Positions 49,692-53,942 of a stretch of 64,000 bases of DNA are shown in pieces; position 1 is the first letter of the stretch, and the number at the start of each line of letters is the position of its first letter. Location of the stretch: assembly GCA_944392955.1 (NCBI GenBank), contig CALXYK010000008.1, forward strand, positions 1 to 64,000, read 5' to 3'. The notes below the pieces were generated by a model, which made no database searches, was not told where the DNA came from, and was given only the letters and a program-made list of their open reading frames with translations. Source of the DNA: an uncultured Alphaproteobacteria bacterium. Its GTDB lineage: Bacteria; Pseudomonadota; Alphaproteobacteria; Rs-D84; CACZYB01. The position numbers and the translations under genes are program-made.

Positions 49692-50675
49692 ATGATATAT
49701 TCAAATGAGGTTATTCACGATCTTGTGCAAAGTGTTATTAAACAAGAAATGGATGCTATACAAAAATTAGATGATAATTTTCCAATAGTAGATTTTGTGA
49801 ATGTTGTAAATTATATTACAAATGAATTAAAGGGTAAAGTTGTTATTACAGGTTTAGGAAAATCAGGTGATGTTGCAAAACGACTTGCTACTACTTTGAC
49901 TTCTACTGGAACAAGGGCAATTTTCCTTCATTGCACAGAGGCTTCTCATGGTGATATGGGAATAATTTGTGATGATGATTGTGTTATTGCTGTTTCAAAT
50001 AGCGGTGAAACAAAAGAAATGAGTGATGTTATAGATTATACCAGACGTTTTGGAATAAAGTTGATTGCTATTTGTTCTAATCCTAACTCTTCGTTGGGTA
50101 AACATGCTGATATAAACCTAACAATTCCTGATGTCCCAGAGGCTTGTTTGATAGGAAAAGCTCCTACTACTTCTATTATTTTATTGACTACTATGGCAAA
50201 CTTGTTAATTGTTGCTTTAGAAAAGACAAAGGGCTTTACCTCAGATATGTATAAAAATTATCATCCACATGGTAAGTTGGGGGCTTCGTTATTAAAGGTA
50301 TCAGAACTTATGCATACAGGAACTGAACTTCCGCTAGTTGATGAGACTGCCTCTATGTATGATGTTGTTTCTGTTATGAGTAGAAGGGTTAGATTTGGTT
50401 GTGTTGGTGTAGTTGATAAAGATGGACGTTTAGTTGGTGTATTTACTGATGGAGATATTCGTCGTCGTCTTTGTGAAGGTGTTAATTTAATGGAAAAAAA
50501 GATTTCTGATGTTATGGGGAAATCTCCGAAAACTATTTCATGTGATGCTTTGGCTTCATCTGCTCTTTTACAAATCAATGAAAATCAAGTTCAGGTGTTA
50601 TTTGTTGTTGATGCAGACAATAAACCTGTTGGTGTAATTAGTTTCCACGATTTATTAAAAGCGGGTTTGGTTTAA
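49692..50675 (+). CDS. kdsD: Arabinose-5-phosphate isomerase KdsD/KpsF
   Basis: Converts ribulose-5-phosphate to arabinose-5-phosphate, the entry to Kdo and so to LPS. The 327-aa product has an N-terminal SIS domain (about 35-180: KVVITGLGKSGDVAKRLATTL, then AVSNSGETKEM) and two CBS motifs (about 205-325: RFGCVGVVDKDGRLVGVFTDGDIRR). It is directly followed by lptC. Confidence 0.95.
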   Translation: MIYSNEVIHDLVQSVIKQEMDAIQKLDDNFPIVDFVNVVNYITNELKGKVVITGLGKSGDVAKRLATTLTSTGTRAIFLHCTEASHGDMGIICDDDCVIAVSNSGETKEMSDVIDYTRRFGIKLIAICSNPNSSLGKHADINLTIPDVPEACLIGKAPTTSIILLTTMANLLIVALEKTKGFTSDMYKNYHPHGKLGASLLKVSELMHTGTELPLVDETASMYDVVSVMSRRVRFGCVGVVDKDGRLVGVFTDGDIRRRLCEGVNLMEKKISDVMGKSPKTISCDALASSALLQINENQVQVLFVVDADNKPVGVISFHDLLKAGLV

Positions 50676-51347
50676 TTGGTAAAAAAAAATACAAAAATAC
50701 ATAAAAAAGTTAGAATATATAAAAGGGCTTTTTCTTCTGTATATAAAAAGATGACCTTTCATAGTCGTATTGTGTTTTTGTTGAAAATTGCTTTACCAAG
50801 TATTACGGCATTGTTTTTAGGTGTTGTCGTTTTAATACCGCAAATTGATGAAAAAATAAAAAATATAAAAATAGATATCCCAAGTATTGATACAACTGAT
50901 AAAATTTCTTTTACTATGGATAATGGTAATTTTTATGGACAGGGTGAAGATGGTGCAGTATTTTCCTTAAATGTTGAAAATTTTAAGGAAGATAGGGAAA
51001 ATATGGTTATGTTGTTTTCAAAAATTACTGCAAAAATCTTTCTTAAAGATGGTAGTTGGATTAATGTATCTACAGATAAGGGAAATTATATTAAAAAAGA
51101 TAATCTTTTCTTTATGAATGGTAATATTGTTATTACAGATAGTGATGATAACAAAGTTTATACAGATGAAGCGATTGTAAATATTGATGATATGTCTGTA
51201 TCTGGTGATAAACCTATAAGAGCGTTTACCAATTTTGGTCAAATAAATGGGCAGGGGTTCAATTTTAAACAAAACGAAAAATATTCATTTTTTGGTAAGG
51301 TAAGCGGAAATATTGATACTGCAAAAATAGAAAAACAACACAAATAA
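50676..51347 (+). CDS. lptC: LPS export ABC transporter periplasmic protein LptC
   Basis: Bitopic inner-membrane protein that passes LPS from LptBFG to LptA. The 223-aa product has a basic N-terminus, one transmembrane helix (about 33-54) and a beta-jellyroll region rich in alternating hydrophobics, as in alphaproteobacterial LptC (with TDKGNYIKKDNLFFMNGNI). The start codon is TTG, placed directly after the kdsD TAA with a weak GCGGG upstream, so translation is probably coupled. lptA and lptB, often next, are absent here. Confidence 0.85.
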   Translation: MVKKNTKIHKKVRIYKRAFSSVYKKMTFHSRIVFLLKIALPSITALFLGVVVLIPQIDEKIKNIKIDIPSIDTTDKISFTMDNGNFYGQGEDGAVFSLNVENFKEDRENMVMLFSKITAKIFLKDGSWINVSTDKGNYIKKDNLFFMNGNIVITDSDDNKVYTDEAIVNIDDMSVSGDKPIRAFTNFGQINGQGFNFKQNEKYSFFGKVSGNIDTAKIEKQHK

Positions 51348-51348
51348 C

Positions 51349-52935
51349 TTATTTCATAACTATCATTGATAGTTGGCGTCCTTCGTCAGTTGGTGTGTCG
51401 TTTGCATATTCTTTGTTTATTAAACTTCTTCTGTAACTGAAAAATAAATCTGTATTTTTATATGTGTCAAAATTAAGAATTTCTATGGTTTTTATACCTT
51501 CTTCTTTTAATTTCATAATACAATAAGTAGTGCAATCAAATAAATATTTTTCGTTAGATATTTTTTTAAATAATTTTTTGTATTTGATATTTTGTTTTAT
51601 TATATCCTTAACAAAATCATAAGAAACTTCGTATGATTTTTGTTTTAAACAAGGTCCAAGAGCAACCTTTATATTTTTAGGGCAGGATCCTAGTTCAGAC
51701 ATTTTTGTTATGGTGTTGTGAATTATATTTTTGTAAATGCCTTGCCAACCGCAATGTATTGCACCTATTAAATTGTTCTTTTCATCACATAGCAAAACAG
51801 GCACACAATCAGCAGTTAATATACCAACTGCAATATTTTTTTTGTTTGTTATTATACCATCGGCTTCTGTATTTAAATATTTTTCAACAGAAGAAATAGG
51901 TTTATTTATAACAATTATTTCGTTTGTGTGTTTTTGATTTAAAGTTATTAGTTGAGAATCTGCATCTAAGCCTATTGTTGATAATAGTAATTTTCTATTT
52001 TGTTTTACATTATCTTTTAAATCAGAAGTTTCAAATTTGCAATTCGCATTTGCAAATACACCTTTTGATACTCCGTTTTGTCGTGTGAAAAATCTGGTGG
52101 TTATTTTATCTGAATCTAGTAAAGGTGAAGATGTGTATATTTCTATATTTTTTCCTTTTTTAAATAAATATATTATCATAAATACAGATATTACAATCAT
52201 AGGTATTGTTAGAATTTGTCCCATGGTTAAACCATATTTAAAAAAACCCAGTTGGACATCAGGTTGTCTGAAATTTTCCATGCTTACCCTTGCTACTCCA
52301 TAAAGGCAGATGAAAGAAAATGCAATAACGCCATATCTGTTTTTTATTGATTTTATTTTCCTTAAACTATAAAGAATTATAAATAAAAGTAGACCTTCGG
52401 TTAATGCTTCGTAAAGTTGGCTTGGGTGTCGTGGTAATCCGTTGGTATTAGGAAATATAATGCCTATTTTAGAGGTAGTAATTCGTCCATATAATTCACC
52501 ATTTACAAAGTTTGCAATACGACCGAAAAATAATCCTATTGGTGCCGCCATACATAGAATGTCTGCTATGTATAAAAAATTTTTATTATGTTTTTTGCAC
52601 CATAAAAACAAGGTGATTATACAGCCTAATAAACCTCCATGAAAGGACATTCCTCCCTCCCAAATTTTTAGTATGTTTAGGGGATGAGAAAAATAAAAAT
52701 TAAAATTGTAAAATAGGGTATAGCCAATTCGTCCACCCAATATAACTCCGATAATCATATAAGTAAATAAATCATCAAGTTCGGTATAGGATAATATATT
52801 ATTTGTGCTGTTCCTTAAAATATGTTTTATATAATAAAACCCCAAAATAAAACTGAATATATAGGCAAGGGCATACCATCTTATGTCAAAACCTAAAATA
52901 CTAAATGCGATAGGTGATATATTAGGGAATAACAT
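51349..52935 (-). CDS. lgt: Fused prolipoprotein diacylglyceryl transferase (Lgt) and PgeF/YfiH protein
   Basis: One continuous 528-aa frame joins two normally separate proteins. Residues 1-262 are Lgt, which attaches diacylglycerol to lipobox Cys: about seven membrane helices, MSFHGGLLG (97-104) and the signature GRIANFVNGELYGR (138-151). Residues 265-528 are a PgeF/YfiH (laccase-domain) protein: TRQNGVSKG, QKHTNE with His336, ADGIITNKK, LTADCVPV with Cys377, GAIHCGWQG with His394, GPCL and FFSYRR. PgeF acts on purine nucleosides and edits peptidoglycan precursors. Lgt ends in the cytoplasm, which suits a cytosolic fusion partner. It follows the membrane-protein gene by 14 nt. Confidence 0.93.
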   Translation of the reverse strand: MLFPNISPIAFSILGFDIRWYALAYIFSFILGFYYIKHILRNSTNNILSYTELDDLFTYMIIGVILGGRIGYTLFYNFNFYFSHPLNILKIWEGGMSFHGGLLGCIITLFLWCKKHNKNFLYIADILCMAAPIGLFFGRIANFVNGELYGRITTSKIGIIFPNTNGLPRHPSQLYEALTEGLLLFIILYSLRKIKSIKNRYGVIAFSFICLYGVARVSMENFRQPDVQLGFFKYGLTMGQILTIPMIVISVFMIIYLFKKGKNIEIYTSSPLLDSDKITTRFFTRQNGVSKGVFANANCKFETSDLKDNVKQNRKLLLSTIGLDADSQLITLNQKHTNEIIVINKPISSVEKYLNTEADGIITNKKNIAVGILTADCVPVLLCDEKNNLIGAIHCGWQGIYKNIIHNTITKMSELGSCPKNIKVALGPCLKQKSYEVSYDFVKDIIKQNIKYKKLFKKISNEKYLFDCTTYCIMKLKEEGIKTIEILNFDTYKNTDLFFSYRRSLINKEYANDTPTDEGRQLSMIVMK

Positions 52936-52949
52936 AAGAATCCTCCGAT

Positions 52950-53942
52950 TTATTTGTTTGTTTTACCTTTGATTTCTACAAAAGCTTTTTTGAAATCTGG
53001 GAAATAATAACCAGTCATAATTGCACTTAGTAAAATTATTATGAACAAGCCTGTTAATATGCCAATTATACCAAGTTCAATACTTATAAACATGAATTTA
53101 AATATGGTATATTTTTCCAAATCATCAGAATTTTTTTGTGAAAAGTAAAATAATGATGTTAAACATGCAAAAATATAAAGTAGAACTAAGGCAACACTGG
53201 ATTCCGTGAAAAAGAAAAATAGTAAGCCTGTTAATGAGAAGGTTAGCAAACTTTTTTCCAAGAAATCTATACCAGAGAAAGTTTGTCGTTTATTTTTAAA
53301 AATTATATTTTTTTCTTTGGCCTTTTTTATTATTAAAAACATTATTAAAAATGCATTTATTATTATAAATATTCCAAATTCAAACATTGTAAATATATCA
53401 ATGGCTCCGGAAATTCCAGTTCCGAAAAACAAAGGATATGAAAAGATTGTAAATGTTAAAGCAAGTCCTAATACATTTAAAATTCCACAATGTTTTGAAA
53501 TTATATTTGTTATTTTTTCTATAAATTTATTGAAATATTTTTTCTTAAAAAATATTAAAAGCATTGCAACAGATATAAAAACCAAAACCATATTACATTT
53601 ATCTATTGTAGAAATGATATTGGTCTTACATTCGGTTGTTTGTTTTGTAATATCTGGAACTTCGGTATATGTAGAAACACCAGTTTGTTTTTCCTTTTTA
53701 ACATTTTTTGAATTTTCGTTAATTTCTTTTTCTGATGTGGATAGATCCTTTTTTCCTGAGGAGGTTGTTTGTGTAGAGGTATCCTGTTTATTGTTTGATT
53801 TTTCAGCATCTGGATAATTTGTTATATCAGATGGTTCATCAACAGCAGTGGCTTCGTTATCCTGTTCTGTTGTATAAATTTCGTTTGTATTGTCTTCGTT
53901 ATCTACAAATTCTACTGAATAAAATGGATTGTCTTCAAACAT
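52950..53942 (-). CDS. Multi-pass membrane protein with acidic N-terminal tail, 330 aa
   Basis: Unrecognised. Residues 1-110 are hydrophilic, rich in Asp, Glu, Asn, Thr and Lys, and look disordered. Residues about 117-325 hold six or seven hydrophobic helices (NMVLVFISVAMLLIFF, ILNVLGLALTFTIFSYPLFF, and a last one with GIIGILTGLFIIILLSAIM). There is no signal peptide. It is the first gene of a two-gene unit with lgt-pgeF, so it may act in the inner membrane alongside lipoprotein maturation (context only). Confidence 0.7.
   Translation of the reverse strand: MFEDNPFYSVEFVDNEDNTNEIYTTEQDNEATAVDEPSDITNYPDAEKSNNKQDTSTQTTSSGKKDLSTSEKEINENSKNVKKEKQTGVSTYTEVPDITKQTTECKTNIISTIDKCNMVLVFISVAMLLIFFKKKYFNKFIEKITNIISKHCGILNVLGLALTFTIFSYPLFFGTGISGAIDIFTMFEFGIFIIINAFLIMFLIIKKAKEKNIIFKNKRQTFSGIDFLEKSLLTFSLTGLLFFFFTESSVALVLLYIFACLTSLFYFSQKNSDDLEKYTIFKFMFISIELGIIGILTGLFIIILLSAIMTGYYFPDFKKAFVEIKGKTNK

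Follow-up and report, generated by a model that had tools for sequence, protein, structure and literature searches.

A conserved, lineage-specific fusion of Lgt and PgeF in a family of uncultured Alphaproteobacteria and its probable origin from an operon that lost its middle gene

Does a single gene of an uncultured alphaproteobacterium join two known enzymes that work on the two sides of the inner membrane and, if so, how did they come together and does the cell gain from their union? The question is raised by the lgt-pgeF gene at positions 51349-52935 (minus strand) of the window, by which we mean the whole stretch of 64,000 nucleotides that was analysed. In the list of open reading frames this gene is one frame of 528 codons with an ATG start and zero internal stops, and the computed mass of its product is 60.4 kDa. 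Two domains score above curated cut-offs. The Pfam LGT domain (PF01790) covers residues 8-256 (52168-52914, minus strand) with 240.8 bits against a cut-off of 24.9, spanning profile positions 1-240 of 240, and the PgeF/YfiH domain (PF02578) covers residues 283-505 (51421-52089, minus strand) with 214.5 bits against a cut-off of 22.9, spanning profile positions 1-227 of 238. Both NCBIfam equivalogs, TIGR00544 for lgt (219.9 bits, cut-off 118.9) and TIGR00726 for PgeF (181.5 bits, cut-off 141.15), match this same protein. Among PDB sequences, the first half matches E. coli Lgt (5azb) and the second half YfiH-type proteins (1xfj, 1rv9, 1u05, 7f3v and others). The original prediction of complete Lgt and PgeF in a single 528-codon frame is thus upheld by the Pfam and NCBIfam cut-offs, and the junction, which it had put at about residue 262, near 52150, falls within the linker at residues 257-282 (52090-52167, minus strand). 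In the source genome (G000; 915,102 bases in 17 contigs), the only match to the fusion protein is the fusion gene itself.

The upstream gene on the same strand (52950-53942, minus strand) ends 14 bases before the fusion gene and is probably its operon partner. Its open reading frame encodes a 330-aa predicted membrane protein with several strongly hydrophobic stretches and no match in Pfam or NCBIfam. Relatives detected with blastp occur in the stretches of six of the eight fused genomes described below (the source genome included), and in five of the seven others they occupy the same place; L007 has no such relative, and the stretch of L002 begins too late to show one. From the other side, a SIS-CBS gene, which we take to be KdsD-like, and then lptC (49692-51347, plus strand) run towards the fusion gene, and the lptC frame stops one base short of the fusion frame. 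An Rfam search of the window returned one tRNA and nothing else.

To establish how widely the fusion is distributed, the whole protein was searched against genomes of the family (11), the order (201), a sample of the class (385) and a sample of the phylum (398), comprising 940 different genomes (G000-G939). A full-length fusion in one stop-free frame is present in 8 of the 11 family genomes, namely the source genome and seven relatives, with query coverage of 1-528, 1-527 or 2-527. The fused genomes include all six of the window's genus (its own counted) and one each from two other genera; wherever both halves are visible in a family genome, they are fused. G009 shows the PgeF half only, starting at base 11 of its contig, the remainder being lost to the contig end, and G006 and G010 gave no match to the fusion protein. 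Pfam placed both domains in one frame in all three relatives checked (G003, G007 and G008) of the seven. The search for the same domain pair in relatives, suggested at the outset, has therefore shown that lgt and pgeF are not separate genes in all of them, and the stop-free frame in 8 of 11 genomes contradicts a frameshift, or an overlooked stop, at the junction. The same observation bears on the possibility that two genes were joined by an artefact of assembly or sequencing. These genomes are fragmented assemblies, which gives that explanation some footing; yet the same in-frame fusion recurs in eight of them, seven of the copies being only 43-70% identical in protein sequence to that of the window, and the gene sits inside a contig of 71,281 bases. 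We rejected the artefact because of this recurrence, and consider that it has virtually no chance of being correct.

Beyond the family, 187 of the 201 genomes of the order match the query; among the matches listed, which are the best by E-value, only those of the same eight genomes reach full length, and the others cover the Lgt part alone. In the class and phylum samples most genomes give at least two separate matches, again among the best matches listed. Across the 940 genomes no full-length match was found outside the eight family genomes among the matches listed, in which a fusion split into two matches could escape. Searches of one genome each from two further groups added nothing, and a contig scan yielded two loci without a fusion, one with lgt and midA (L073) and the other with a relative of PgeF (L074). 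A long Lgt-holding frame of 626 aa in L059 was set aside as a candidate, since this locus has separate lgt, midA and pgeF genes and no fusion. A literature search, from the coverage of which subscription journals and preprints were mostly absent, found no description of an Lgt-PgeF fusion. The fusion is confirmed as real, conserved and rare, as unusual as had been supposed. It represents a new arrangement, specific to this lineage, of two enzymes that are themselves known, and does not amount to a new kind of system.

Are both halves likely to work? We mapped catalytic residues onto the fusion through alignments to PDB sequences and compared them over the eight copies. For Lgt, 13 of the 16 mapped role residues of the E. 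coli enzyme are identical in all copies (Y26, which we take to have a stated role in E. coli Lgt, and Y30, Y80, H103, R143, N146, N149, E151, G154, Y235, R239, E243 and R246). The equivalents of the catalytic H103, R143 and R239 (H99, R139 and R216 in the fusion protein), as well as HGG and G150, are likewise identical in 8/8. E202 is replaced by Q in G008, and the equivalents of W256 and Y259 are not kept in the fusion copies. The roles of the mapped residues, apart from Y26, are those given in excerpts of PMC4728403. These residues lead us to expect a normal Lgt, a predicted inner-membrane diacylglyceryl transferase, in the N-terminal half. This half likely has seven transmembrane helices, by homology to 5azb; a hydropathy scan detects several hydrophobic stretches in residues 9-264, in which the helices are not cleanly separated.

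The PgeF half, a predicted UDP-MurNAc-L-Ser amidase, keeps most of its active-site residues in 8/8 copies. Identical throughout are the equivalents of YfiH Q69, H71, D89, A105, D106, C107, H124, W127, Y227 and R228, of which Cys107, His124, Asp89, His71 and Gln69 correspond to C377, H394, D359, H336 and Q334 in the numbering of the fusion protein. R128 of YfiH is Q in six of the eight copies, R in G007 and K in G008. Arg235, which binds the L-Ser carboxylate in YfiH, lies beyond the alignment, the last aligned residue being 231; its equivalent may be in a DEGR motif that all eight copies have close to the C-terminus. According to excerpts of PMC8844914, E. coli YfiH is a soluble cytoplasmic UDP-MurNAc-L-Ser amidase in which Q69 selects for L-Ser and Y227 and R228 contact UDP-MurNAc. 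Retention of Q69 and of the C107-H124-D89 triad speaks for the same amidase activity in the fusion. The half might instead serve purine-nucleoside metabolism: the excerpted text of PMC6978800 reports in vitro turnover of adenosine, inosine and methylthioadenosine by the DUF152 proteins YfiH and YlmD, which use the same Cys-His-His site for it; the fusion has kept this site. However, the L-Ser selector and the two UDP-MurNAc contacts are also kept in 8/8 copies, and MurC, the source of the PgeF substrate, scores over the cut-off in 10 of the 11 family genomes, so that a purine role in place of peptidoglycan editing appears quite unlikely. LspA, the next enzyme after Lgt, is over the cut-off in 9 of 11; with MurC and LspA present in most family genomes, both pathways that the fusion protein would serve are present. 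Judged by their residues, both halves look active. Most catalytic residues are invariant in 8/8; the loss of W256 and Y259 and the variability of E202 and R128 count against the bifunctional reading given below.

The stretch between the domains, from the last transmembrane helix to PgeF, behaves differently from its flanks. Over residues 257-278 the seven relatives are 18-46% identical to the window's copy, compared with 47-73% in the Lgt half and 41-69% in the PgeF half. Such a short and variable linker would suit a gene that is fused only as DNA and yields two separate proteins, through an internal start, slippage at an A-rich linker or proteolysis. The window indeed has a run of six A where the last Lgt helix ends, and possible in-frame starts occur within the 29 codons before PgeF in two copies, one TTG in G005 and three GTG and one TTG in G008. 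In the other six of the eight copies, however, these 29 codons contain no in-frame ATG, GTG or TTG, which indicates that a separate PgeF start is not conserved, and we regard the production of two proteins as highly unlikely. If the product is a single chain, its orientation may be predicted from E. coli Lgt, in which, by excerpts of PMC4728403, the head of about 50 residues between TM4 and TM5 is periplasmic and the N-terminal side of TM7, the last helix, lies at the periplasm. The chain should therefore emerge on the cytosolic side, the compartment in which YfiH is active (excerpts of PMC8844914). Assuming that the fusion shares this topology, PgeF would be tethered at the cytosolic face of the membrane. 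The original prediction of a membrane tether is to this extent supported, PgeF being expected on the cytosolic side of the inner membrane. Against a function of the tether next to lipoprotein maturation stand the unconserved linker and the lack of PF02578 in most of the order, where it occurs in 13 of 201 genomes. The tether might bring a benefit, but the evidence lends no support to one.

How the two genes came together is suggested by their arrangement elsewhere. It had been expected that lgt and pgeF would often be neighbours, but in the outgroups they are usually not adjacent, midA lying between them. We inspected 35 Lgt loci of genomes that do not belong to the order (L045-L073 and L075-L080); these are the best Lgt matches plus one from the contig scan and hence not a random sample. 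In 31 of them lgt is adjoined by midA, recognised by its relationship to the middle gene of L059; that gene matches PF02636 with 193.5 bits, which we take to be the MidA/NDUFAF7 family. When stretches chosen for having midA were extended, 18 of 19 showed lgt, midA and pgeF in this order on one strand. An intermediate stage, in which lgt would adjoin a pgeF still unfused, was not encountered, which counts against the scenario set out below. In two loci of family f78, L058 and L048, the place of midA between lgt and pgeF, which share one strand, is taken by another gene, a 266-aa frame in L058 and another frame in L048.

The window's order has lost the middle gene altogether. PF02636 was found in none of its 201 genomes, and the same holds for PF00346, the 49-kDa subunit of complex I, a Caulobacter control being matched by both profiles. 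Excerpts of PMC3829151 describe MidA as the orthologue of NDUFAF7, which methylates NDUFS2, the 49-kDa subunit, in human complex I. Most simply, the order would have lost complex I jointly with the factor presumed to methylate it. PgeF itself is scarce there: PF02578 is absent from 188 of the 201 genomes, and the 13 that have it comprise nine of this family, three of family f4 and one of f5, that is, only 4 of 190 genomes outside the window's family. Within the fetched flanks of about 1.5 kb on either side of these four PgeF genes no lgt was found. In a tree of 33 sequences the PgeF halves of the nine family genomes form one clade with support of 100/100 (the bootstrap being not fully settled), and a single origin of the fusion is the simplest reading of this clade. 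The tree does not resolve where the clade belongs; the family pgeF is likely, though not proven, to descend from the old operon neighbour and not to be a later arrival.

Taking these results together, we consider it probable that the fusion is bifunctional, was born once through the loss of midA and complex I, and has for the most part simply been tolerated as a by-product of genome reduction. According to this scenario, the order would have lost respiratory complex I and, with it, midA from the lgt-midA-pgeF operon; lgt would then have come to abut pgeF, and the stop and start between them would have vanished in the ancestor of the window's family. In the rest of the order pgeF would have been lost or placed elsewhere, as in f4 and one f5 genome; the stand-alone f4 genes count against this scenario in that they show that pgeF can survive unfused. 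The fusion gene would now yield one inner-membrane protein of about 60 kDa. On the periplasmic side its Lgt half would modify the lipobox cysteine of prolipoproteins with diacylglyceryl taken from phosphatidylglycerol, and the last helix would end in the cytosol, followed by a short free linker and a normal PgeF (YfiH), a cysteine amidase predicted to hydrolyse UDP-MurNAc-L-Ser, the wrong precursor made by MurC.

Alternatively, the fusion may have been selected, either because PgeF is held at the membrane near the membrane steps of peptidoglycan synthesis or because its dose is locked to that of Lgt. Its persistence in every family genome showing both halves, across three genera, and the rarity of PgeF elsewhere in the order are compatible with selection. 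On the other hand, the linker is not conserved, the loss of the middle gene already accounts for the juxtaposition, and, once the start codon of pgeF had gone, the fusion would be retained without any benefit from a tether. Selection is in our view unlikely. Equally doubtful is a working coupling, in which proofreading of the cell wall would be membrane-bound and its dose locked to essential Lgt in a lineage nearly all of whose relatives in the order gave up PgeF.

If the by-product reading is correct, the family offers a clear example of how an operon can give rise to a fusion protein when its middle gene is lost, here apparently together with complex I, and the fusion of the two enzymes is in itself a well-supported natural one. 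Were the protein made as predicted, Lgt would tolerate a folded cytosolic domain of 250 residues at its C-terminus, and the fusion would provide a ready test of PgeF editing when tethered. Were such genes annotated from only one of their domains, the other would go unnoticed.

Compared with E. coli Lgt (5azb), the fusion has a full-length domain over the cut-off, with H103, R143, R239 and the other mapped network residues mostly invariant, but differs in the PgeF domain past the last helix and in the lost equivalents of W256 and Y259. A large C-terminal extension is also known from Mycobacterium tuberculosis Lgt, described in the excerpted text of PMC13251419 as without known homology. With E. 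coli YfiH (7f3v) the fusion shares a domain over the cut-off and, in 8/8 copies, the C107-H124-D89 triad, H71 and Q69; unlike that soluble enzyme, the fused PgeF is the tail of a membrane protein, and R128 has become Q in 6/8. A second fusion inside the lgt-midA-pgeF operon, also ending in PgeF, is found in genome G305 (L090:903-2966, minus strand), where MidA (PF02636, residues 77-307) and PgeF (PF02578, residues 442-685) share one open frame of 687 aa; there, however, the partner is MidA and not Lgt, and it comes from one genome only, of another family of the class. Also close is the operon itself in outgroup genomes of the same class (e.g. L059 and L093), which shares both end genes, their order and their direction, and from which the window's family differs in that its order lacks midA and the end genes are merged into one frame.
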